Of a stretch of DNA of 64,000 nucleotides, positions 14,469 through 30,765 are shown piece after piece. The first letter of the stretch is position 1. Every line of letters begins with the position of its first letter. The notes below the pieces were generated by a model, which saw only the letters and a program-made list of their open reading frames with translations, was not told where the DNA came from and did not search any database. The position numbers and the translations under genes were made by a program. Origin of the DNA: Sedimentisphaerales bacterium (GTDB taxonomy: Bacteria > Planctomycetota > Phycisphaerae > Sedimentisphaerales > SM23-30); contig JANQJS010000022.1 of NCBI GenBank assembly GCA_028281535.1, positions 124,001 to 188,000 of the forward strand, read 5' to 3'.

Positions 14469-15740
14469 TTACGGTTGACTTGCAGTATTCGATAACGATT
14501 TGCTGATAGGATAAGGTTCTGGCAACTGGGCAAATTCCCCAATCGCTCCAAACAGCTTATCAAAATCCCGATAAACATCACCAATCAGACAATGGGTAAC
14601 ATCAGATCGTAAATCAGGGTATTTGTCAAATAATTTACGCCAGTTGAAGGTCTCATCATAAAATGAAAATACCAGATTTCTCATGGCACCAATACCGCGA
14701 CAAATCGTCTCGCCATAAGCTTCAAAGTTTTCGCCACGAACATCCTTTTTCTCCAGTGCCATGTGGGCTGCATCTCCAGCCATTTCGCCCCCTTTCAATG
14801 CAAGAAAGACACCCGACGAAAAAACGGGATCTAAAAAGGCAAAGGCATCCCCAGTCAGTATCAAACCATCTGTAGCACAGTACTTAGAGCGGTAAGAAAA
14901 ATCGCCCGTCACTTTAAATTCTTCAATTCTTTCACCAGTGCTTAAATGGTCTTTAATCCATACATTTTTTTCAACTTCTCGTTCGAAAATCGCTTGAAGA
15001 TCTCGTTGCTCGTCTGAATAAAGATAATTTCGATCAGCAACAATACCTACACTTATAATATCATTAGGAAGTGGTATGTACCAGAACCATCCCTTTTCAG
15101 GAACATATGCAACCGTTGTTGCACCTTCATCATACCCTTCATCACGTTTGGCTCCTTTAAAATAGGACCAAATAGCGACTTTATCTAAACGTTTATCACG
15201 AATTCGCCAGTCTTTCTTACAAGCGGTAAAGCCAGTTCGACCACTGGCATCGATTGTAATAGGTGCATGAAATTCGTATTGTCCGCCATGATTATCCGTC
15301 GCTTTTACGCCAGCGATCGCATCATCCTGATTAACAATAAAATCTTCTGCTGTTATTTTCTCAAATATCTGAGCGCCCTTTTCTTCGCTATGACCCAATA
15401 GCATTGAATCAAATTCGCTACGAACCACTTGCCAAGTCATTGAAGCTTCATGTTCAAAATGCTTAAAGAAATAAAACGGCGCAGAGACTTTCCCGTTCAT
15501 ACTAACAAATTGAACAGAATATTTCTTAGTAAAACTGGAGGCTTTCATCTTCTCAATAAAGCCGATACGTTCTAAAGGAAAGTAGCAGAAAGGCAATAAT
15601 GATTCACCGATCGAATAACGAGGAAATGGTTGTTTTTCCAAGACAACAACATCTCTGCCATGATCGGCTAAAACACTTGCGGCCATAGCCCCTGCAGGGC
15701 CACCACCTATAACAACGACATCACTTTGATAAATTTTCAT
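14469..15740 (-). CDS. FAD-dependent oxidoreductase of the halogenase/geranylgeranyl-reductase group
   Basis: A 423-residue flavoprotein. The N-terminal dinucleotide fold reads VVIGGGPAGAMAASVLADHGRDVVVLE, followed by the GESLLP signature near residue 48 and, near 225, GWFWYIPL, which fits the WxWxIP motif of flavin-dependent halogenases. GDAFAFLDPVFSSG near 300 is the second FAD-contact motif. Proteins with this pattern include true halogenases but also hydroxylases and reductases from pigment pathways, so halogenation is only a possibility. The start is the ATG at 15740, which has GAGGTG about 5 bp upstream; the track ORF uses an upstream TTG. It follows the chorismate-lyase-like gene by 8 bp. 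Confidence 0.8.
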   Translation of the reverse strand: MKIYQSDVVVIGGGPAGAMAASVLADHGRDVVVLEKQPFPRYSIGESLLPFCYFPLERIGFIEKMKASSFTKKYSVQFVSMNGKVSAPFYFFKHFEHEASMTWQVVRSEFDSMLLGHSEEKGAQIFEKITAEDFIVNQDDAIAGVKATDNHGGQYEFHAPITIDASGRTGFTACKKDWRIRDKRLDKVAIWSYFKGAKRDEGYDEGATTVAYVPEKGWFWYIPLPNDIISVGIVADRNYLYSDEQRDLQAIFEREVEKNVWIKDHLSTGERIEEFKVTGDFSYRSKYCATDGLILTGDAFAFLDPVFSSGVFLALKGGEMAGDAAHMALEKKDVRGENFEAYGETICRGIGAMRNLVFSFYDETFNWRKLFDKYPDLRSDVTHCLIGDVYRDFDKLFGAIGEFAQLPEPYPISKSLSNTASQP

Positions 15741-15748
15741 AGCACACC

Positions 15749-16336
15749 TCAATGTTCATCTTGCAAATTTGGTAAAATTTCGATGATTTGTGCCAACGGT
15801 TTATTATCCATAGGATCTAATAAAACATTCTGCCTGCCATACAACCAAGAGCCTTCAGGCACTTTCAACAATCCACTTATTTCATGAACTGCTTTGATCC
15901 TGAAAAAGGTTTGTGGCTGACTAACAAATGAAATATTAAATTTCCGGAGAATCGCTCCAAGCGGCACTTTACTATCAAGAATATATGCCTGTGCCTCTTC
16001 AGTAAATTTATCTAAAAATATATGTATCGCACCATACTCCGTAACAACATTTGATTTTTCACCTATCAATAATACGGAACGCGTCAATATTTGGTTTTCT
16101 ATTTTTTTGTCAAGTAACTGCAATTTCAATTCATCAGAAAAATACTTTTCTAATGTTGATGTCATATCATTATCATGAACCAATAACCCCGCATAGGGTT
16201 CTGGTACATTCTCTGGAACAAGTGCTTCAATGTCCAAAACATCAAAAAGGTGTTTAAAATCGTTTAAAAATTCTAAAACAGTTTCTTTGTTCATATTGCG
16301 GTTATGTTTAAATGGTATACTAGGCATATCGTACAT
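15749..16336 (-). CDS. Chorismate lyase-like (DUF98-type) protein
   Basis: A 195-residue cytoplasmic protein. The central part (LLVHDNDMTSTLEKYF, then an ILTRSVLLIG strand, then EYGAIHIFLDKF and KVPLGAILR) matches the order of conserved blocks in the DUF98/chorismate lyase-like family, which shares its fold with UbiC and UTRA domains. If it is an active lyase it would split chorismate into 4-hydroxybenzoate and pyruvate, giving an aromatic acid to the two ligases in the operon. The first ATG overlaps the radical SAM gene by 17 bp, and internal ATGs at 16327 and 16294 are possible starts. Recognition is by pattern only, so activity needs proof. Confidence 0.6.
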   Translation of the reverse strand: MYDMPSIPFKHNRNMNKETVLEFLNDFKHLFDVLDIEALVPENVPEPYAGLLVHDNDMTSTLEKYFSDELKLQLLDKKIENQILTRSVLLIGEKSNVVTEYGAIHIFLDKFTEEAQAYILDSKVPLGAILRKFNISFVSQPQTFFRIKAVHEISGLLKVPEGSWLYGRQNVLLDPMDNKPLAQIIEILPNLQDEH

Positions 16337-18892: not shown

Positions 18893-20350
18893 TTATGATT
18901 GACTGCGTTGAATGGAACGACGTCGATATAAAAATTCGAAAAGATTACCTTCGTGGGGCTGATCCCATTCTACATGATTCGTCGGAACAGGCCCAAGATT
19001 CAATCGGTCTATATGACTACATGATAGTAAATCACGAATAAATTTTTCATCATGCGTAATCGCACTAACAACGAGAGAGTCACCAATTTTATCAAGTACA
19101 TCAGATTGAGGCACCTCGGCCACAGTCACAAATGGAAATAGAAATTCTTTATTAAAAAGCGGATGCTCTACTGAATCACAATAGACGATTGTCGGGAGCA
19201 TCAAACTGCGTCCATCAACTTCTACGCGACGCTGGCAATCTCGATAATTTGCTGATAACTCTTGAGCACCTGCCGTTTCTAAACCATCATCAATCATGGC
19301 ATCAATGTAATCTGCCATTTTAGGATTTGCAAATGCACTCAATGTCGCATTTGGATCATCTTCACTGGTTGCTTTTATATCGGCAAACTTCTTTGCCACC
19401 GCTTCCGATATTTCCTTAGCATATTTTGGCACAACCACAGCGGATGCATTTATACAGCTGCGCCCCCCATTAGCCACGACACTTTCCACAATAATGTCGA
19501 TATATTTTTCCCAATTTTCAATTTCATCATCACCGATGATCACCTTGCTCCATCCAGGACCATGGACCTGCACACCAGGATTACCTGCATATTTTTCTAC
19601 CGTCGATACATCACCAAAAATTAAGGCACGATCACAAATATCCATGATCGTCCCACTGCCTTCATGACTGGTTGGATAGAAAGAAAAAGCTTCAGGAGGA
19701 AATCCAGCTTTAATAAATGAATGAATAATTCGCAATGGCGTCCATGGCTCTTCACGACCTGGTTTTAAGATCACAGGCACTTTAAGAACCAATGAAGGCA
19801 TCCAAAGAGAATTCACCCCCGGCGAATTACTTGGAAGCACAACACCTAACGCTTGGGTGACAGGAAAGAAACTAACATTGACACCACCTTGCTGTCCATA
19901 GCCATTATCAATAATACTCAAATCCATCCCACGCGTTAAACCAGCAAGGATCTGCTCCATCTCGGTAAAGACCTGATAGATTTTGGCCATATTACGTTTG
20001 ATCAAAGCATAAGGCAAACCACTCGTAGCAGAGAGCGAGTCCATATAATCCTGAGGACCTTGAGGCTTGCCACCTTCAAACATTGACACTTCACCATTCA
20101 TAAATATTTCACCGGCTTCTTTACTCATCTTAAGTAAATCCGCCGATGGAATTTCCTGAAGTACCGAATAAGCCTTATGTATTTTTCGAAAATCGCGTCG
20201 AATCAATCCCGCATTAGCCTGACTGATTTCTACCAGTTTTTCTTCGCTACCCAAACGGGTAATCTCTGTTTTTTCTAAACTGGTATAGGCCTTCCCTTGT
20301 CGTAAGACTGGGATATGTGGCAGTTCAACCTGTACACTTGAGTCTGACAT
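18893..20350 (-). CDS. Aldehyde dehydrogenase family protein (acyl-reductase-like)
   Basis: A 485-residue ALDH-fold protein. The cofactor region reads LKPGREEPWTPLRI near residue 200, and the catalytic Cys is in NGGRSCINAS near 300. The C-terminal part departs from standard ALDHs, ending in GNLFEFLYRRRS where a typical ALDH has other oligomerisation motifs. The start is the ATG at 20350 with AAGGA 8 bp upstream; the adjacent upstream GTG is less likely. The gene is 15 bp downstream of a short ANL ligase gene. That ligase-plus-ALDH pair resembles the EhpF/EhpG arrangement proposed to reduce griseoluteic acid, and the LuxE/LuxC logic, so acyl reduction to aldehyde is a reasonable inference. Confidence 0.85.
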   Translation of the reverse strand: MSDSSVQVELPHIPVLRQGKAYTSLEKTEITRLGSEEKLVEISQANAGLIRRDFRKIHKAYSVLQEIPSADLLKMSKEAGEIFMNGEVSMFEGGKPQGPQDYMDSLSATSGLPYALIKRNMAKIYQVFTEMEQILAGLTRGMDLSIIDNGYGQQGGVNVSFFPVTQALGVVLPSNSPGVNSLWMPSLVLKVPVILKPGREEPWTPLRIIHSFIKAGFPPEAFSFYPTSHEGSGTIMDICDRALIFGDVSTVEKYAGNPGVQVHGPGWSKVIIGDDEIENWEKYIDIIVESVVANGGRSCINASAVVVPKYAKEISEAVAKKFADIKATSEDDPNATLSAFANPKMADYIDAMIDDGLETAGAQELSANYRDCQRRVEVDGRSLMLPTIVYCDSVEHPLFNKEFLFPFVTVAEVPQSDVLDKIGDSLVVSAITHDEKFIRDLLSCSHIDRLNLGPVPTNHVEWDQPHEGNLFEFLYRRRSIQRSQS

Positions 20351-20368
20351 CACTTTGTTCCTTTACGA

Positions 20369-21457
20369 TTAATAGACACCTTCTACGATTTTCTTTTCGC
20401 TCGCACCAAACGGCCGAACATCTCCCACTCCATCCCAGGGATAAAGCCTACAAGGTTTACGTCTGACAGCCTCATCCCGTTCAAGAAATCGAGGCATAAA
20501 TAGTTCTTTTGTTAGTGTTGTTAACTCTACACGTCCTATTTCGCCATATTCAACCACATTCTCGGTATGCTTTGGATCAACCACACGGGTAAATGCCCTT
20601 GGCTGAGGTGGATAATAGGAAATAGAGAAATTATCTTCAGGCTCTAAAGGCTTACTACTGGCAAGTCCCATAAGTGTATTACCATAGATAGGCACAAATG
20701 AGATTTCATTTTCCAAAAGCTCTTCAATCATAAATCGAACATCCTGAGGCGACATCGATGTGCCGGCACAAAAGACCGCTTTGATATCGGTGTCATCTAT
20801 AATAGAAACACGTTCGCATAATGCTTCGAGTAATTTAGGTGTGGTAAAAAGAGCATCAACTTTACGATGCTTTAAAATCGTTTCCGTTTGGTCAATGACA
20901 TGCTCCATATAAGCTTTCGCTTGATCGAACTGTTTGCGTTCAATCAGTTTTTTCACCCAACGAGCATCCATATCAATAAAGTAGCAGCTGCACTTGCGTT
21001 GATGTGCAAGATACTCGATAGATAAACGCAAACGACGTGGACCTGTTGGCCCCATCATCAGCCAGTAACCACCTGGAGGAAATGCTTTGTCGTCAAGCGT
21101 CTTAGCATAATCATAGTAATCTGTTTCGTAGTCTTCCCAACCGATGCGCTGCTTAGGCATCCCGGTGGTTCCACCTGTTTCAAAAACAGTGAAAGGTTTA
21201 CCTTCATAGGCCTTAGGCACCCAACGTTCAGGTTGTTCAAAACGCAACCAATCATCTTGAAAATGATCAAATTTCAAAAGATCACTTGCTGATTGAACAT
21301 CTTTGAGTGGATCAAAATTAGCCTTGCTGGCCCAATCCAACCAGAAAGGGGTTCCCGTTTCGGGAGAAAAATGCCACTGGATGATTTCACGAACCCTCGC
21401 ATCCAGCGCGTCACTCGCTGCCTGTAAGGCAGTTTCTTCAACTAAATCAGTACTCAT
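20369..21457 (-). CDS. Short ANL-superfamily ligase, EhpF/PaaK-like
   Basis: A 362-residue adenylating enzyme. The phosphate loop ETGGTTGMPKQR lies near residue 92, and an ERDEAVRRKPC/GDVRPFG hinge-like region near the end replaces the classical YRTGD. It is about 70 residues shorter than PaaK because the C-terminal lid domain is missing or much reduced, as in EhpF-like proteins of phenazine pathways. AAAGGA is 6 bp upstream of the ATG. It should form an acyl-adenylate that the ALDH encoded 15 bp downstream could reduce. The lost lid fits a role that needs only the adenylation half-reaction, which is inference. Confidence 0.75.
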   Translation of the reverse strand: MSTDLVEETALQAASDALDARVREIIQWHFSPETGTPFWLDWASKANFDPLKDVQSASDLLKFDHFQDDWLRFEQPERWVPKAYEGKPFTVFETGGTTGMPKQRIGWEDYETDYYDYAKTLDDKAFPPGGYWLMMGPTGPRRLRLSIEYLAHQRKCSCYFIDMDARWVKKLIERKQFDQAKAYMEHVIDQTETILKHRKVDALFTTPKLLEALCERVSIIDDTDIKAVFCAGTSMSPQDVRFMIEELLENEISFVPIYGNTLMGLASSKPLEPEDNFSISYYPPQPRAFTRVVDPKHTENVVEYGEIGRVELTTLTKELFMPRFLERDEAVRRKPCRLYPWDGVGDVRPFGASEKKIVEGVY

Positions 21458-21475
21458 GATTGTCCTTTACTTTGT

Positions 21476-22981
21476 TTATTTTGATGCTGGAAAAAACTTT
21501 TTAATAACGTCATCCGGCATTGGTTTAGTCATCAACGAAATCACCACCAATGAAATCGCAGACACGGCGAAAATAAAAGTTACTGGCATCATTTCAGCGA
21601 CTAAACCTTCACTTTTGCCATAACCACTTCTTTGAAAAAAGTAAAACCAGGCAATGATCGTTAAAATCACACTGCCTATCGCGCCAGCTGTTGTTACACG
21701 CTTCCAATAAACCGAGGCTAACACCAATGGAAACAAACTGGCAAAACCACTAAAACACCATACACCTAAATCAAATACTTTACGAGGTTCTAAGAGCGAC
21801 AATAAATATGTGATCAATACGATAAAAACGATAAACCCACGACCGATCCACACCTTCTGCTGATCACTAAATTTGTCTTCACCATAGGCATGCAGAACAA
21901 TATCATTTGTGAACATACTACCAATGCAAACGAATTGGGAATCAAGTGAAGACATAATGGCTGCTAATATACCAGCGGTAACTAATCCAACTAAATAGGG
22001 ATTTGAAACAAGTTTTTTTACCATAACAGCCAAAACGGCATTGGGAGGAGATTTGATCTCCGCACCAACAGCCCAAATACCAATCAATATGCAGGGCACC
22101 CAAACAATCATAATAAATATAGGATGGGCAATCACCGTTAATCGAAATGTTTTAGCGCTTTTTGCGGTAAGCCAATGCTGGAACAAGTGAGGAAACATGC
22201 CTACAGATAATGGAACAAAAAAGTAAGTCAAAAACTCTCGTTTATGAATCATACCTTCACGCATCAAGTGCTTTGGCGACACTTCAGCAACTTTTTGAGA
22301 CGCTGCTTCCAACCCACCCAATGCTTTTGCAATTAATACAAAAATAATCACACCTGTCGTCATAAAAACCAACGTCTGAAAGGTATTAGCCCATGCTGCT
22401 CCACGTACACCACCATAAAAAACATAGTATAGTACAACGGAACAAATGACCAAACCAGTTAACCATTTTGGTACAGCACCCGCTGTGTCGGTGAACGTTT
22501 CAGGAAACATACCTTTGGTAACTCCACCAATGACCGAACCAGCGCCCAGTAATCCAATGAGCAAATAAGGAATTACCAATCCAACAAGAATCGGAAAAAG
22601 CAAATATCCTAGAAAGTTTGATTGAAATCGATCACGGAAATATTGGATCTGAGTAACATAACCGTAACGCTTACCCATCGCCCAAAGTTTGATTCCTACT
22701 AAAAAGAAAATCGCTGAGTGCACCAACCCAGACGACGAAGCCATCAATCCATAAACACCAATGCCCTTCTGGAATGCTTTTCCGGTACTACCAACCAAAG
22801 CGAAAGCCGTCATTGTCGTACCGAACACGCTCATCAATAATAAAAAGGGGCCAATCGATCGACTGGCGACAAAATAATCCTGGCTGGTGCCTCGAAATAA
22901 ACGAGAACTCAAAACACCTAAACCAAGCAACAAGCACATATACCCAATGATTACATAAAGTGGTATATAACTGACTTCCAT
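21476..22981 (-). CDS. Sodium:solute symporter (SSS family)
   Basis: A 501-residue polytopic inner-membrane protein with about 13 helices. It has the SSS pattern: an N-terminal outside helix, the RSIGPFLLLMSVFGTTMTAFALVG core of the first inverted repeat, and MSSLDSQFVCIGSMFTND in the helix carrying sodium-site Ser/Asp residues. It should import a small organic solute with sodium. Its start codon shares one base with the stop of the preceding 76-residue gene (TAATG), a classic coupling arrangement for DUF3311-SSS pairs. The imported compound could feed the ligase/reductase enzymes encoded just downstream. Confidence 0.9.
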   Translation of the reverse strand: MEVSYIPLYVIIGYMCLLLGLGVLSSRLFRGTSQDYFVASRSIGPFLLLMSVFGTTMTAFALVGSTGKAFQKGIGVYGLMASSSGLVHSAIFFLVGIKLWAMGKRYGYVTQIQYFRDRFQSNFLGYLLFPILVGLVIPYLLIGLLGAGSVIGGVTKGMFPETFTDTAGAVPKWLTGLVICSVVLYYVFYGGVRGAAWANTFQTLVFMTTGVIIFVLIAKALGGLEAASQKVAEVSPKHLMREGMIHKREFLTYFFVPLSVGMFPHLFQHWLTAKSAKTFRLTVIAHPIFIMIVWVPCILIGIWAVGAEIKSPPNAVLAVMVKKLVSNPYLVGLVTAGILAAIMSSLDSQFVCIGSMFTNDIVLHAYGEDKFSDQQKVWIGRGFIVFIVLITYLLSLLEPRKVFDLGVWCFSGFASLFPLVLASVYWKRVTTAGAIGSVILTIIAWFYFFQRSGYGKSEGLVAEMMPVTFIFAVSAISLVVISLMTKPMPDDVIKKFFPASK

Positions 22982-23211
22982 TAGCTCTTCTCACTTTCTT
23001 CGACTTCGTCGGCCCATTTTTCTAATTCATGTGGCCAGGCAAATTTTAGAGCACAAGCCCACAAGCATGCCGCGGCGATCGAGAAAGTGGCGTGATAAGC
23101 TAATCCTTTCGGCATAAAACCAAATACCAGCCCTGGGTCATCCCAGAGCCAAACATCCTGATGAAGGACGAATAACACAATACAACCTATCCAGATAATT
23201 TTTTTACCCAT
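22981..23211 (-). CDS. DUF3311-like small membrane partner of the SSS symporter
   Basis: A 76-residue protein with two hydrophobic helices (about 5-20 and 40-60) and an acidic C-terminal tail rich in Glu. Size, topology and the position immediately before an SSS symporter gene fit the DUF3311 family, whose members accompany symporters such as panF-like transporters. The stop and the symporter start overlap by one base, so translation is probably coupled. Its exact role is not established; it may assist assembly or gating of the symporter. Confidence 0.7.
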   Translation of the reverse strand: MGKKIIWIGCIVLFVLHQDVWLWDDPGLVFGFMPKGLAYHATFSIAAACLWACALKFAWPHELEKWADEVEESEKS

Positions 23212-23223
23212 GAGGGCGATCCC

Positions 23224-24762
23224 TTACTTCTTCTTATCAGGTTTGCCAATCGCATACAAATGCGTTTGGGTGGTAATATATAAAACATCATTAGCCACAA
23301 CCGCACTGGAATAAACCGGTGCTCCCATATCCATCTTTTTGATTTCTTTCATTTTCTTGTCGGCTGCCAAAACAACGATTTCGCCATCTTCATTACCGAT
23401 GATTACTTTACCATCCGCAACTAATGTCGAAGCCCAGATAGAACTTTGTGTATCATAGACCCAATATTTTTTACCCGTTTCAGCATCTACGCAATGAACA
23501 CGGCCGGTATAATCAGCCGCAAAAACCAATCCGTTATAAATCGAAACAGTAGAAATGGTTCTTTCAATATCTTTGTATAGCCAAACAGCTCCCGTTTTTG
23601 AAATATCTCCATCCTTAGTAGCATCGATGCAACTTAAAACTCCAACGCCTTCACCGTGCTCAGGGTCCTGGCCCGTTGCAACATAAATGCGATTTTTGTA
23701 AAAAACAGGCGTTGCGATAATTTCACTGGGTCCTTTACGCTTTGGATACTTAATCTTTTTACCATTCTTCATGAGATACTCTGGTGGATTACAGTTAAAT
23801 CGCCAGATTTCTTTGAGGATATCATAGCCATCTTCTTTAACGGGTTTTGGATCAAATCCATAGCAATAGCCATCACCGCCACCAAAGAAAAGCATCTCCT
23901 GGCCATTGACCACACCAAATGCGGGTGAAGACCAATTGCAATGATATAGTCGAGTACTAATACCTGAAGCTTCTTCACCAACAAGTTTACCTGTTTTTGC
24001 ATCCAGACAAATTAATGTGGGAGCACGAGGACTTGGGATATTTACGTGAGACCAATCTTGACCATTTGAGGTCGTTACATAAATCTTACCATCGTAAGCT
24101 AAAATAGAACTACTTGCGATATTGTGCGGAAAAACACCTAACTCTTTACGCATATCGTAGGTCCAAATGATATCAGCATCTTTATCGCCGACTTCAAGTT
24201 TTGGTTTACCTTCACCAACAACATATTGCCCTTCATCTTTAAACGGCCCATCATTACCATTGGCCATCCCTTTAACGTCCATACAAACCACTTCACATCG
24301 ATTCGTTACCACATAAACGCGGTCACCTAAAACCGTTGGAGAGCTGCAAATCCCTAGATATTCCCAGTCGCTGACTTTTCCCGCACCAAGCTTAGGAACA
24401 ATCAACTGCCATTTGAAGGAACCATCTTTTTCATCAAAACACATGACCACACCTCGGTCGCCTTTATGTTTTGGATCGCGAGGAGATTCATTGTTCGTAC
24501 CAACATAAACCTGGCCATCAGCAACGGTGACATTGCCGTAAGATTGCGAGCCCATTTTGGCGATCCACTTAATATTCTTTGTGGTTTTCATGTCCACTTC
24601 TTCAGTGTCATAATCCATCTCACCCACATTAAAACTATCAACGATTTTTTCCGTCGATGAAGCCATGTTTTTTGAATAGTCACGCCCCCACTGCGGCCAG
24701 TCTTCAGCTTGCAAACTAGCAGTAAAAGCTAACATTATTATTGCGATGATTCGTTGTTTCAT
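23224..24762 (-). CDS. Exported PQQ-like beta-propeller protein
   Basis: A 512-residue secreted protein with a cleavable signal peptide (hydrophobic about 6-17, ending near LQA-ED) and then PQQ-like propeller blades with motifs such as VYVTTSNGQDW, VYVGTNNES and VHCVDAETGKKYWVYD. The mature N-terminus (DWPQWGRD) is the usual opening of this PVC protein group (DWPxWRG). The start is the ATG at 24762, with AGAGGA about 10 bp upstream; the ATG at 24771 sits too close to that site. Blade-like repeats are clear, but nothing identifies a bound PQQ or a reaction. It is the second gene of the large operon, 38 bp after the first, and precedes the symporter pair. Confidence 0.85.
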   Translation of the reverse strand: MKQRIIAIIMLAFTASLQAEDWPQWGRDYSKNMASSTEKIVDSFNVGEMDYDTEEVDMKTTKNIKWIAKMGSQSYGNVTVADGQVYVGTNNESPRDPKHKGDRGVVMCFDEKDGSFKWQLIVPKLGAGKVSDWEYLGICSSPTVLGDRVYVVTNRCEVVCMDVKGMANGNDGPFKDEGQYVVGEGKPKLEVGDKDADIIWTYDMRKELGVFPHNIASSSILAYDGKIYVTTSNGQDWSHVNIPSPRAPTLICLDAKTGKLVGEEASGISTRLYHCNWSSPAFGVVNGQEMLFFGGGDGYCYGFDPKPVKEDGYDILKEIWRFNCNPPEYLMKNGKKIKYPKRKGPSEIIATPVFYKNRIYVATGQDPEHGEGVGVLSCIDATKDGDISKTGAVWLYKDIERTISTVSIYNGLVFAADYTGRVHCVDAETGKKYWVYDTQSSIWASTLVADGKVIIGNEDGEIVVLAADKKMKEIKKMDMGAPVYSSAVVANDVLYITTQTHLYAIGKPDKKK

Positions 24763-24800
24763 AGTATTCATTCCTCTTTATTTTTAGCTTATATGCGGGG

Positions 24801-27086
24801 TTACTTACTTTTAGTGACAGAAACATTATCAACAAACACTTTAAATTGACTTTGCGGTGAAAAACCAATCAAGCCTGGCGCCCCCACTTTATGGGCAATC
24901 TTATGGGGAACTTCAATCGTCCACTCTTTGGGCTCTGGATCACTACGTTTCCATGCCTTGGCACGAACCACACCACTACCATCGTCATTTAAATCAACGC
25001 GTGTCTTAATTCGATACCACACATTTTCACGCCATGAGAAGGGAACAGAGACTTTGATTCGATCATGATTACTGCTGACTTCCAGTTGCTGCCAATTACC
25101 AATCAAGGCTACAATATAACGCTGATTAATCACACCAACATTTGACATCATACGACGGTTGCCGTCAGTCATGACATCTGCTTCGACGGTATAGCCAGTT
25201 GAATCCGGATGCCCGATGAATGTCAAAGCACGTTGAAATAAAACACGATCCAGTGTTTTAGCTAAGACCTTGTTACCTTCAAGCTCACGAATTTCCCATT
25301 TGAGCCGTCCACCAATCCAAGATAATGGAGGATAAGAAAATTTTCCGCCATCACTTTTAGCGGTCACATTCAAATCAAATGATTCAAAATCTTCAGAAAA
25401 TGGCATTTCGGGAACAACACGTCCGCGAATCACACCCGTTAAATTATCCGCAGTTGCTTTAAACGCTCCTGCAGATGGATCATTACCAGAATCAATGACC
25501 AAGGTTCCTTTATCATTGAAATCACCTTTTAGTTTTGATTTCACTTTAGCTGTCGCAGGAATGAATTTTTCCCAAGAGGCATCATCACTAGCCATAGTAT
25601 CTGCAAGGAATCCGTTGCTGTCTAGAACATTGATTTTGAAATCTTGTTTTGTGTTAGGTGTTAAAAGAACTTCATTTGGAACTATTTGTAATCGAGCGGG
25701 CTTACCAGCTTTATCATATCGTTTTTCTGTGGAACCTTTAACAAGACCAGGGTTATCGCCTGCTTTACCAAAGCAATAAAGTTTTTCAGTTGAATGCACA
25801 TAGACTTTACCATTCCAAGCACTTGGGGAGCCAAGACCATTACCTTCTAATTGAATTTTCGTTAATACCTCAATACCAGTATCACCAGGTTTAACAATAT
25901 AGAACAAGCCGTTTTTCATTGGAATGTAAAGCTTGCCATCAGCGTATAATGGCGAAGCATGCAACTGAGCATTTGACAGTTTTTCTTTCCAGACAACTTT
26001 GCCGCTATTGACATCAATGCAATACAAATCTCCTGTCTGCACAACTTGATATACTTTATCGCCAACCAGGACAGGGGAACTCGTAAACATACACAATGGC
26101 AAACGCCATAATTCAGAATTAACATCCAATACTTTCTGCTTTTTACCATCTAAATCTTCTGTGCCATTTAAAGACAACGCAATCATACGACCGATCTCAG
26201 AGTTATCTAAATTTTCTCTGCCATGAATAACAATTAACTTATCGTCATGTTTTACGATTGAAGAATTGACGCCACCGTACGAATAATGATATCGCCACAA
26301 TGGTTCACCAGTGCGAGCATTGACGCAAACAACATTACCGCAACCCGTTCCAGCATAAAAAACGCGTTTGCCGCCATACCATGCCATGATAGGTGTGGAA
26401 AAAGAACTATCTTTGGGAGCCGTTCCAGGTGTACTACGCCAAACCAACTCACCCGTGATTTTATCAAAAGCATAAAAGCGATCTCGCGCGGGCCCTTCTT
26501 TACCCCAGTTGGCGGTAATGCCACGAACAATGACTAAATCATCATCGATAATCACCGCACCTGTTCGACCATTGGGAAATGTCAATCGACCAAATTTTTC
26601 CATCATGGATATGGTCCACAACTGTTTTCCATCTGGATTAAAACAAGCAAATTCACCGCAGGTTGTTGATACGTAAATATTTCCCGTTTCACGATCAACA
26701 GTTGGACTACCGATAGCGTATCGCAGATAAATGATATCACTTAAATAATCGTTGAACCCAAACTCCCAAATCGTTTTACCCGTTTCAGCATCTGCACAAA
26801 GTAAGATCTCTTGAAGATCGGGTCCTTCACCTCGATAGCCCATCGTGTATAATCGACCATTAGCAATCACCGGCGTGCCGCGACCTGAAAGGTCGACCGA
26901 CCATAAGTGATTCTTACCATCAATTTCAACTTCACTGACAAGCCCTGTTTCACGTGAAACACCTGTTTGTTCAGGACCTCGCCAATTAAGCCAGCCATCG
27001 ATACTTGCCAGGGCTGTTTGAGCTGTCAGGGTTAATAGTAAACCAAACGATATAAAAAATGATTTATTCCGCATGATGGGCTTCAC
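24801..27086 (-). CDS. Exported PQQ-like propeller with C-terminal concanavalin-like domain
   Basis: A 761-residue secreted protein. The signal peptide ends near LAS-ID; residues about 30-440 are a PQQ-like propeller (WLNWRGPEQTGVSRET opening, blades such as IYVSTTCGEFACFNPDGKQLW). Residues about 460-560 form an Ig-like spacer, and about 565-761 a jelly-roll domain of the DUF1080/LamG type (EDFESFDLN through FVDNVSV), a fold often used for carbohydrate binding. The start is taken as GTG at 27086 with GAGAGGAT upstream; an ATG at 27074 is an alternative. It is the first gene of the 22-kb operon, with a strong promoter about 170 bp upstream. Confidence 0.8.
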   Translation of the reverse strand: MKPIMRNKSFFISFGLLLTLTAQTALASIDGWLNWRGPEQTGVSRETGLVSEVEIDGKNHLWSVDLSGRGTPVIANGRLYTMGYRGEGPDLQEILLCADAETGKTIWEFGFNDYLSDIIYLRYAIGSPTVDRETGNIYVSTTCGEFACFNPDGKQLWTISMMEKFGRLTFPNGRTGAVIIDDDLVIVRGITANWGKEGPARDRFYAFDKITGELVWRSTPGTAPKDSSFSTPIMAWYGGKRVFYAGTGCGNVVCVNARTGEPLWRYHYSYGGVNSSIVKHDDKLIVIHGRENLDNSEIGRMIALSLNGTEDLDGKKQKVLDVNSELWRLPLCMFTSSPVLVGDKVYQVVQTGDLYCIDVNSGKVVWKEKLSNAQLHASPLYADGKLYIPMKNGLFYIVKPGDTGIEVLTKIQLEGNGLGSPSAWNGKVYVHSTEKLYCFGKAGDNPGLVKGSTEKRYDKAGKPARLQIVPNEVLLTPNTKQDFKINVLDSNGFLADTMASDDASWEKFIPATAKVKSKLKGDFNDKGTLVIDSGNDPSAGAFKATADNLTGVIRGRVVPEMPFSEDFESFDLNVTAKSDGGKFSYPPLSWIGGRLKWEIRELEGNKVLAKTLDRVLFQRALTFIGHPDSTGYTVEADVMTDGNRRMMSNVGVINQRYIVALIGNWQQLEVSSNHDRIKVSVPFSWRENVWYRIKTRVDLNDDGSGVVRAKAWKRSDPEPKEWTIEVPHKIAHKVGAPGLIGFSPQSQFKVFVDNVSVTKSK

Positions 27087-27257
27087 AATAGCATCCTCTC
27101 TATATTGATTTATCCTAAATAAATCCCAGTTAAAAACTTGCAGTAGACTATCATAACATTTCCGCTATAATCGCTTGTCGTCATGTCAATATGTCAGTGA
27201 CGCATAATCTTGAAATCAATGAGTTTGTGAAAATATCGACTGTAACTCATTAATAAT

Positions 27258-27286
27258 ATAATATGTATACGTACGTTTTTTGTCAA
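27258..27286 (-). promoter_or_regulatory. Promoter with putative operator, head of the 22-kb operon
   Basis: Read on the minus strand: TTGACA at 27286-27281, a 17-bp spacer, TATTAT at 27263-27258. The spacer holds the palindrome-rich sequence ACGTACGTATACA. Nearly the same promoter and spacer core recurs at 29301-29329. It lies between the first operon gene and the divergent MarR gene, the usual place for an autoregulated MarR operator. A MarR bound between -35 and -10 would repress the operon. The leader would be about 165 nt. Confidence 0.65.
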
Positions 27287-27338
27287 TAGTTTTAATTTTT
27301 TTTTAGTTTTTTTATAATTTCATACGGGAATATGACTT

Positions 27339-27818
27339 ATGAGCAATGATGGCGCTACAGATATCGCAGAACTCTTTATCGAACGACGAATTCCACCCCT
27401 ATTACGGAGAGCTTGGTACAGCTTAAACCAGGAATTTCGCCGCCGTCTAGCCCACTTGCAGATTACCCCAAACCAATTTACCATCCTCAGGTGGCTGATT
27501 GAAAAGGATAACCAAGGCCTAACCCAACGCGAAATTGCATACCTCATGGCCAGCGACCCAAATACAATCACCTCAATCTTGAATCGACTGGAAGATAAAG
27601 AATATATCGAACGCACTCCGCATGAATCAGACAAGCGAGCCCATCGGATCCGAGTCAAAGAAGGTGGACGGGAAATCTACAATCAAGCAAAACCCATTGC
27701 CATGGATCTGCAAGATGAAATCAGCCATTGTATTGCCCCCGACAAAGTGGATGAATTTATAACGCAGTTGTCGACTCTCGCCGACAACTGCAATAAGATT
27801 TTAAATAAAAATAAATAA
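27339..27818 (+). CDS. MarR family transcriptional regulator
   Basis: A 159-residue winged-helix protein. The recognition region is LTQREIAYLMASDPNTITSILNRLEDKEYIER and the wing is the SDKRAHRIRVKEGG segment, flanked by the dimerisation helices of the MarR fold. Members often repress nearby genes until an aromatic acid, its CoA ester or another phenolic ligand binds. It is transcribed divergently from the 22-kb operon; the 250-bp gap contains the operon promoter with a palindromic spacer. A clear terminator follows at 27857. The regulatory target is inferred from position and from the repeated operator-like motif. Confidence 0.9.
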   Translation: MSNDGATDIAELFIERRIPPLLRRAWYSLNQEFRRRLAHLQITPNQFTILRWLIEKDNQGLTQREIAYLMASDPNTITSILNRLEDKEYIERTPHESDKRAHRIRVKEGGREIYNQAKPIAMDLQDEISHCIAPDKVDEFITQLSTLADNCNKILNKNK

Positions 27819-27856: not shown

Positions 27857-27882
27857 AATGCTGAAGAGCATTATTTCTTTTT
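27857..27882 (+). terminator. Intrinsic terminator of the MarR gene
   Basis: Perfect 6-bp stem AATGCT/AGCATT with a GAAG tetraloop (27857-27872), followed by ATTTCTTTTT. It lies 39 bp after the MarR stop and overlaps the stop codon of the convergent propeller gene. Confidence 0.7.
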
Positions 27883-29151
27883 CATATCAATACAAATCAT
27901 CTCTTCTTGGTCTCGCAAAATAAGCATTCCATTACTCAAAGCTAATGGCGCCCAGATTTCTTCTTCCCCATTGAGCACTTTCACCTTTGCGAGTTGTTTG
28001 TATTTCTCACCAGTGGCTTCAGCTAAAATTAATTCGCCTGTCTCACCTGCTAAGGCAATTACCATATTATCAGCAATGATGAGATTACCTTTGTCCACAT
28101 CTGGAGCCTTCTGCGTTTTCCATAACGTATTACCTTTCAAGTCCAGGCATACTAACCCTTCATGCTGGTTCCTGTCCATATTTTCGTTGGTATTAAAATT
28201 TGCAAAGAGTAGATCATTATGCAAAATAGCAGGATGAATTTGTGAGCCCCGCTCCTTGAAACGGAAAATTTCTTTGAATTGGTAGCCCGTTCCTTTTTTA
28301 AGAACTTCCAACATCACAGAGCCAGAGTCATACCCCCCCGTAATAAATAACTTGTTCTCGCTAATCTTTGTAGGGTATGGAATGGGTATATTATTTTTAT
28401 ACCCTTCATAATCCCATATCGTTTTGCCTGTATCGGGATCAATAAACAGCACATGACCTTCAATGATATACAAAAACCCTTTCACCCCTGCTATGGTTTG
28501 TAAAGATACAGGCATGTATGATCCATATTTCAGCTCACCAAACGATGGAGTCGTCCAAATGGTTTTACCCGTATTTTTATCAATAGCCGCCAAACCGGCT
28601 TTCTTACCCATTGGGGTTATAATCAACTTATCTTTATAAACGACAGGCGCATGAGAGTAACCCCAGGTGGGTGGCTCTTCAACATCAAACGTTTTCATCA
28701 TATCGATAATTTTAACGAATTTCTTTTTATTACGATCACAAATATAGATCTGACCGAATGGGCCGCTGGCATAGACTCTATCTTTCGTCACAGTTGGCAC
28801 ACACCTGGAGCCATTGAAATCGATACGGCCTGGCACTTTATTGACGCACTGCCATTTCAGCTTGCCTGTTTTTAAATCCAGACATTTGAGCATATCTTGC
28901 GTACCCACTTCACGATCCATAATGAATATTTCATCACCATCGATCGCAGCTCCACCAAAACCCGGCTCAACGTCTATCCGCCATAATATCTTCGGACCAC
29001 TTTCTGGAAAACTTCGCACAAGGCCAGTCTCAGGGCTATAACCCGTTCCTTCAGGGCCTTGAAAATGTGGCCAGCTAGCCAACAAAAACGACTGACTCAA
29101 TAACATCATTAATACTACTACACAACTTTTCCGAACCATATCATACTCCAA
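27871..29151 (-). CDS. Exported PQQ-like beta-propeller protein
   Basis: A 426-residue secreted protein. The signal peptide has a hydrophobic core at about 8-24 ending near LAS-WP. The mature protein opens with WPHFQGPEGTGYSPETG, the group's typical first strand, and has seven or so PQQ-like blades (VYASGPFGQIYICDR, KLIITPMGKKAGLAAIDKNTG and others). It is a likely periplasmic or surface protein; no ligand can be named. It is driven by a promoter at 29301-29329 that copies the one at the head of the 22-kb operon, so it may belong to the same regulon. Its leader contains the 3' stub of another propeller gene. Confidence 0.85.
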   Translation of the reverse strand: MEYDMVRKSCVVVLMMLLSQSFLLASWPHFQGPEGTGYSPETGLVRSFPESGPKILWRIDVEPGFGGAAIDGDEIFIMDREVGTQDMLKCLDLKTGKLKWQCVNKVPGRIDFNGSRCVPTVTKDRVYASGPFGQIYICDRNKKKFVKIIDMMKTFDVEEPPTWGYSHAPVVYKDKLIITPMGKKAGLAAIDKNTGKTIWTTPSFGELKYGSYMPVSLQTIAGVKGFLYIIEGHVLFIDPDTGKTIWDYEGYKNNIPIPYPTKISENKLFITGGYDSGSVMLEVLKKGTGYQFKEIFRFKERGSQIHPAILHNDLLFANFNTNENMDRNQHEGLVCLDLKGNTLWKTQKAPDVDKGNLIIADNMVIALAGETGELILAEATGEKYKQLAKVKVLNGEEEIWAPLALSNGMLILRDQEEMICIDMKKK

Positions 29152-29165
29152 ATTTATATTTTATT

Positions 29166-29252
29166 TTAGATACCAACCCAGACGAGATTATCGTCGGTAT
29201 TGCGAGCACATAAATAACCGACTGGTAAAGATGAAACCGTCAAACAACGTTC
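29166..29252 (-). pseudogene. 3' remnant of a PQQ-like propeller gene
   Basis: Translating the minus strand just before the 426-residue propeller gene gives ERCLTVSSLPVGYLCARN and then TDDNLVWVGI followed by a stop. The last residues of the neighbouring 410-residue propeller protein read GRCWTVPTLSNGHLFARN and then ADGTLVCVDI. About half of the positions agree, in register and at the same distance from the stop codon. Nothing upstream of this piece in the same frame looks like a propeller; it runs straight into the promoter at 29301. The natural reading is that almost all of a tandem propeller gene was deleted, leaving its promoter and its final 28 codons. Confidence 0.6.
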
Positions 29253-29300
29253 CATACACACAAGCATCGTGTAATATGCCTTACGAATTCCTACACATAT

Positions 29301-29329
29301 ATAATATGTGTACGTATAGTAATTGTCAA
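29301..29329 (-). promoter_or_regulatory. Promoter with putative operator, copy of the 22-kb operon promoter
   Basis: Minus-strand TTGACA at 29329-29324, a 17-bp spacer, TATTAT at 29306-29301. On the plus strand the -10 side reads TATAATATGTGTACGTA, against TATAATATGTATACGTA at 27257, with the shared part at the same register inside the spacer. Both -35 elements lie in CCATTGACA or CTATTGACA. It would drive the 426-residue propeller gene with a leader of about 140 nt. Confidence 0.65.
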
Positions 29330-29448
29330 TGGTTCTTGTTTTTTTGGTGATTTTATAATCGCCTATTTTAAAATTACTTGTGGTGACATTCCTCGCCATC
29401 GACTACATAAACCTGTTTATATTAAGATTAGCCCTTCACCATAACAAC

Positions 29449-29492
29449 GGGCCTAGAATAGCTAAACAAGGACGTTTACTATCACCAGGCCC
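29449..29492 (-). terminator. Hairpin terminator after the 410-residue propeller gene
   Basis: Outer arms GGGCCT (29449-29454) and AGGCCC (29487-29492) enclose a second stem ATAG(C)TAAAC / GTTTACTAT. It lies about 40 bp after the minus-strand stop at 29533. A T-run flanks it on the plus strand (ACTTTTTATT) and a weaker GTTGTTAT on the minus strand, so it could work in both directions. Confidence 0.45.
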
Positions 29493-29532: not shown

Positions 29533-30765
29533 TTATTTACTGATATCTACACAAACAAGAGTACCATCAGCATTCCTAGCAAACAGATGACCATTTGATA
29601 ACGTCGGCACAGTCCAACAACGCCCACTCAATAACTTCATGCGAGAAACTTCATTGTAACCTGAAGGACTCGCCTTAACAGATACGAGTTCACCACCATC
29701 ATTTAATATGACTAAGGTCCCATCAACCAAGAACAGACTACCAACAGTAAAACCTTTTTGTTGCCATTTAACTTTTCCCGTTTCAAACTCCATGCAAATC
29801 AAAGGAGCATCATCTTCTTCATTACCACTCGTACCATACAAATGCCCTTGCCACAAAACACTGCTGGCAAATTGATTTTTCATGTCCTCTTTGCCCCATA
29901 TTTGCTTAGGGCCTCCAGCTCCGATATTCAACAAGGCACATCCACGATCATAGCCAGAAGAGATAAACATTTTATCGCCTTGAATAATTGGATCTGCAGC
30001 GTTTACATTCCAAGCCGTCTTCCATCTGTGACGCCAGAGTTTTTTGCCAGTCTTGGCTTCCACTGCGGAAATATACTTACCACTAAACATCGCAACTTTC
30101 TCTTGCCCATCAAGCGCATAGGGGACAGGACTGGAATAACCCGCCGTTCCATTTTCACCCTTCCATATGAGTTCACCTGACGCTTTATTAAATGCTAATC
30201 CCGTTAACCCTGCATTAACAATCAGCATATCACCATGAATGAGTGGCGAACCTGATAATCCCCACATCGGAATTTTAATGTTATATTCTTTACGTATATT
30301 CTTTTCCCAAACTTTGGAACCATCACTTGTTTTCCAACAAATTAAATCTCCATGCTTGCCTTGTGTATAGACAAGATTACCACCAATCGTTGGCGTTGCA
30401 TTAGGTCCCCCTTCATACATATTGGCCTTCAGCTTACTTTTATATTTACTTTCCCAAACCTTTTTACCTGTTTTGATATCTATACAGACCAAGATATCTT
30501 CATCATCCACATTTCCCATCGTAAAGGCTTTTCCTTGACTAGTGACAATCGAAGAAAATCCCGTCCCAACATGCGTTTTCCATAGTCGCTTAGGTGGATG
30601 TTTTTTCCAATCAAACTGAATATTTGTTTCTTTAGAAATACCATTATGATCTGGCCCTCGCCAATTTGGCCAATCCCCTGCAGAGACAGTAGTTGCTAGA
30701 AGGAATAATAAGGAAACCGCGACGAGGCATTGAATAGACTTTTTAGCGATAGACGTATCGATCAT
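29533..30765 (-). CDS. Exported PQQ-like beta-propeller protein
   Basis: A 410-residue secreted protein. The signal peptide (about 12-28) ends near VSA-GD. The mature start GDWPNWRGPDHNGISKET is the standard opening of this PVC propeller group, followed by about seven PQQ-like blades (LVYTQGKHGDLICWKTSDGSKVW is representative). AAAGGAG lies 6 bp upstream of the ATG. It has its own promoter at 30843-30871, which lacks the TACGTA spacer of the MarR-linked promoters and carries TAACGTTA instead. Its C-terminus is the closest match to the decayed fragment at 29166-29252, so the lost gene was probably a tandem duplicate of this one. Confidence 0.85.
   Translation of the reverse strand: MIDTSIAKKSIQCLVAVSLLFLLATTVSAGDWPNWRGPDHNGISKETNIQFDWKKHPPKRLWKTHVGTGFSSIVTSQGKAFTMGNVDDEDILVCIDIKTGKKVWESKYKSKLKANMYEGGPNATPTIGGNLVYTQGKHGDLICWKTSDGSKVWEKNIRKEYNIKIPMWGLSGSPLIHGDMLIVNAGLTGLAFNKASGELIWKGENGTAGYSSPVPYALDGQEKVAMFSGKYISAVEAKTGKKLWRHRWKTAWNVNAADPIIQGDKMFISSGYDRGCALLNIGAGGPKQIWGKEDMKNQFASSVLWQGHLYGTSGNEEDDAPLICMEFETGKVKWQQKGFTVGSLFLVDGTLVILNDGGELVSVKASPSGYNEVSRMKLLSGRCWTVPTLSNGHLFARNADGTLVCVDISK

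Follow-up and report, generated by a model that had tools for sequence, protein, structure and literature searches.

Is the short open frame that lies between two propeller genes of a Sedimentisphaerales bacterium the remnant of a lost gene, and did that loss hand a regulated promoter to the gene that follows? The first-pass annotation of this DNA (a stretch of 64,000 nucleotides, called the window below) had answered yes to both parts. Judging from sequence comparison, we consider it likely that the frame descends from the 3' end of a second A-type propeller gene, called A' here, and has decayed since; A' would have been deleted from a tandem array between the intact genes A410 and B426. Promoter capture by that deletion is no more than possible. 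The features concerned are collected in Table 1.

Table 1. Features around the relic, with positions counted from the first letter of the window.
Feature	Position	Strand	Basis
3' relic of second A-type propeller gene (likely), 28 codons and stop	29166..29252	minus	A410 match
A410, intact A-type PQQ_2/BamB-like propeller gene, nearest relative of the relic	29533..30765	minus	ORF
B426, propeller gene of a different subfamily	27871..29139	minus	GGAG ribosome site
Strong hairpin 3' of A410, candidate terminator separating A410 from B426, T-tract weak	29449..29492	minus	
Promoter TTGACA-N17-TATTAT, with MarR-type operator overlapping spacer and -10	29301..29329	minus	11/12 sigma-70 match
Promoter block homologous to that of C761, 63 bp	29297..29359	minus	local alignment
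Partner promoter/operator upstream of C761, divergent from marR	27258..27286	minus	
MarR-family regulator, convergent with B426, divergent from C761	27339..27818	plus	PF01047, E 7.6e-15
C761 propeller gene, first of the conserved C761-D515-transporter cluster	24801..27086	minus	

The frame, its stop, its position and the residues quoted for it are all as had been described: the minus strand is open from 29252 to the stop at 29166 and translates as ERCLTVSSLPVGYLCARNTDDNLVWVGI. The claimed in-register alignment with the C-terminus of the 410-residue neighbour is also confirmed, because the last 27 residues match A410 residues 382-408 at 15 of 27 positions without a gap, against 9/27 at the next-best non-self site anywhere in the six frames of the window. 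The Smith-Waterman score of this pair was 64, compared with a mean of 24.2 and a maximum of 45 in 5000 shuffles (Gumbel p ~1e-6). The scores against B426, C761 and D515 were 28, 24 and 23, so that the relic matches the kind of A410 and not propellers generally. Identities were fewer with the A-type paralogue on contig C37 (10/27) and with 26 other A-type proteins (at most 12/27). A blastx search of the 393-bp intergenic region against A410 gave E = 2e-4. At the DNA level, 54 of 81 nucleotides are identical, and the local alignment of about 104 bp ends slightly past the stop; a weak upstream extension (13/24 nt) may carry the homology to about 29276. A410 itself matches PF13360 (E 1.3e-32) and thus belongs to the PQQ_2/BamB-like propeller family, while none of the Pfam models matched the relic itself. 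No further piece of A' was recovered from the 393-bp intergenic region.

It is evident that the fragment has decayed. Seven columns of the A-type C-terminus are conserved in 25 or more of 26 A-type relatives, and the relic has lost four of them (W, P, G and C), whereas intact members lose at most one each; such a loss makes the fragment look like a decayed relic. Only about 27 of 410 codons are left. Identities with A410 by first, second and third codon position are 19, 21 and 14 of 27, that is, 14/27 at third positions against 40/54 at the first two together (two-sided Fisher p 0.08), a pattern that weakly favours divergence as a coding sequence before decay.

With regard to the flanking genes, B426 has its ATG at 29139 and encodes 422 amino acids from there, while the list of open reading frames starts it at a TTG at 29151. 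The stop of the relic lies 26 nt before the ATG, which is an operon-like distance. Paralogues of B426 in its own genome stand at 66%, 45% and 44-50%; a contig scan with B426 as the sole query found no relatives. The hairpin behind A410 (MFE -35 kcal/mol over 133 nt, z -3.6) may be the end of the A410 transcript; a consensus terminator scan did not pick it up. A search of the literature on PQQ-like propellers of Planctomycetes returned nothing.

Tandem propeller genes are common in relatives of this genome. All of the comparison genomes lie outside its genus, and the close A-type relatives come from Sedimentisphaerales, other Phycisphaerae and several Verrucomicrobiota. Intact pairs of A-type genes in tandem, with 48-93 nt between the matched stretches, were found in L100, L116/L180, L122 and L148, and L116/L180 belongs to the same bacterial family as the genome of the window. 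The order in L100 is B-type, A, A and another propeller. Moreover, such genes recur near C761-D515: L210 and L214 each have a pair of adjacent A-type genes there, L203 has one B-type and one A-type gene, and in L107, L212, L213 and L215 an A-type gene lies on the far side of marR. Since arrays are normal at this place, the relic is most simply read as what is left after one member was lost. Two further arrangements were seen among the relatives. In L050, L055 and L058-L062, an A-type propeller and a second propeller are fused into a single protein of about 800-860 residues. The two tandem A-type genes of L180 (2991-5581) have identical last 25 residues but differ overall, with 44% and 39% identity to A410, a pattern that points to gene conversion between these copies.

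The C761-D515 pair has relatives in 51 of the 392 Planctomycetota genomes searched (E <= 1e-120) and on the Pedosphaera contig L107, and marR is adjacent to C761 in seven other genomes. The cluster, which occupies 18893-27818 of the window and 8024-16978 of L107 and is present also in L207, L209, L211-L213 and L215, is common to Planctomycetota and Verrucomicrobiota, with marR divergent from C761-D515 and a conserved operator between them. A transporter (SSS or MFS) follows C761-D515 in several genomes, and the clusters of the window and L107 add an AMP-ligase-like gene and a LuxC/aldehyde-dehydrogenase-like gene. Among the genomes searched, the other members of the order yielded no C761, and this distribution suggests that the cluster was acquired by transfer. 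Downstream of the cluster and in the same direction lies a gene (14469-15752, minus strand) that resembles FADH2-dependent halogenases and geranylgeranyl reductases; it scored 208 bits with the NCBIfam CmlS model, under the cut-off of the model.

The copied promoter that had been reported between A410 and the fragment is real. The 63-bp block and the C761 promoter gave a local alignment score of 54 against a shuffle maximum of 30, and wider regions gave 72 against 52; in a whole-genome DNA search, the value for the block was 78%. At up to three mismatches, the 4.4 Mb genome has TTGACA-N17-TATTAT together with the shared string TACGTAYACATATTAT at exactly two places, one before C761 and the other before the relic. 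An operator matrix of 20 bases, built only from the marR-C761 intergenic regions of seven other genomes, was scored at all positions of the window, and the relic-side and C761-side sites ranked second and third (15.6 and 15.0). The operator is therefore common to both promoters, and the match to its consensus supports, but does not prove, control of both by MarR, whose binding is putative; the sigma-70 match likewise is no proof of promoter activity. With the shared block and the conservation of the operator in seven other genomes, B426 probably belongs to the MarR regulon and would be co-regulated with the C761 operon. The top match of the matrix in the window (15040-15059, minus strand) lies within the FAD-monooxygenase-like gene 14469-15752, and this match at 15059 is probably due to chance.

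The origin of this promoter copy is a separate matter. The stretch from A410 to the relic has no similarity to the DNA upstream of A410 or of the C37 paralogue, and copying of the promoter together with A410 is thereby ruled out. In L107, L212, L213 and L215, no second operator was found upstream of the A-type gene near marR. The promoter copy before the relic thus looks special to this lineage, and nothing in those four genomes ties the promoter to the deleted gene. The copy may have come in the same event as the deletion or separately; had it arrived at that time or later, A' would never have had this promoter. Thus, of what the first-pass annotation had said about the promoter, the copying holds, the block being shared with C761 and carrying a MarR-type operator, whereas the capture by deletion and the assignment of the promoter to the deleted gene do not follow from it. 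The 26-nt spacing suggests that B426 was probably in the same operon already, which makes capture unneeded.

We propose the following history. A' would once have been a member of a tandem propeller array, placed between A410 and B426, with B426 probably already the next gene after it in one operon. The body of A' would then have been lost, so that about 27-35 codons remained immediately behind a promoter that is a copy of the C761 promoter with the same MarR-type operator. Transcription is predicted to start near 29294 and to run through the relic, now probably a non-coding leader, and B426 would be translated from its own ribosome site. If A' and B426 formed one operon, the deletion removed the first gene and gave B426 no new promoter; it would have shortened a leader rather than made a new pairing of promoter and gene.

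Two other origins of the fragment have to be weighed against this history. One is a short partial duplication, in which only the tail of A410 was copied and then decayed and no full second gene ever existed. The closeness to A410, with which the relic shares the uncommon L13, D19 and I27, would fit such a copy, as would the lack of further parts of A' in the intergenic region and the possible continuation of DNA similarity beyond the stop (post-stop p 0.07). However, full A-A tandems recur in relatives, some of them beside the same conserved genes; the sequences diverge more at third codon positions than at the first two, as expected of a former coding gene; and the distance to B426 is operon-like. 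We regard a copied tail as rather unlikely. The other is that an AT-rich leader happens to resemble the C-terminus of a propeller. A profile of other A-type C-termini gave the relic only 8.3 bits (E 0.14, below significance), and several of 20,000 residue shuffles outscored it, so that homology to an intact gene is found by pairwise comparison and not by the profile alone. The weak profile score is explained by the conserved residues being among those changed. Against chance stand the pairwise match, which none of the 5000 shuffles approached in score, and the agreement of position and register with the tandem neighbour, and we hardly give this reading any credence.

A different objection concerns the present role of the frame, which might be a working leader peptide of 33 codons, MLVCMERCLTVSSLPVGYLCARNTDDNLVWVGI, in the B426 messenger. 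It is open from an ATG at 29264 to the stop and lies entirely inside the predicted leader. On the other hand, its ribosome site is poor (AAGG, 11 nt from the ATG), the invariant residues of the source family are gone, and the predicted fold of the leader is no more stable than those of shuffled sequences (z 0.5), so we think a peptide of this kind very unlikely. It is just as improbable, in our estimate, that the relic has been retained as a leader ORF which is itself translated and tunes translation of B426 on MarR-controlled transcripts; if this were true, the tail of a dead gene would have been turned regulatory. Thus, the loss of a tandem A-type gene, to which the A410-specific match, the decay at invariant positions and the A-A tandems of relatives all point, stays likely.

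Deletion relics and promoter rearrangement are already known, and the relic is ordinary genome decay in a known type of array, which establishes no new principle. Promoter capture by deletion was described in experimental evolution with the PFLU4306 and PFLU4308 fusions, from a known ancestor and with a measured rise in transcription (Lind et al. 2015, PMC4395868). Our case is similar in that a deletion would have brought a gene nearer to the promoter upstream of it; it differs in that B426 was probably already in the operon and in that the relic is known from sequence alone. Similarly, deletion-born fusion ORFs arise when a deletion joins distant fragments (preprint, PMC12803068), but the relic follows a promoter instead of a 5' gene fragment, and no start of a fused ORF was seen. 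The arrangement at C761, with marR divergent from its target and a palindromic site between, is like that of other MarR-family regulators with a divergent target promoter. It departs from the usual layout by the second copy of the site beyond marR, upstream of another propeller gene, with MarR binding putative, and this suggests that one gene of the array came under a MarR site conserved across two phyla. The closest likeness is to pseudogene relics in tandem paralogue arrays shaped by bacterial deletional bias, where a short decayed end lies between intact paralogues. The present relic differs from these in no principle, with about 27 codons remaining in a predicted leader, and clearly records turnover in tandem arrays of propeller genes, which are common in Sedimentisphaerales and other Planctomycetota.
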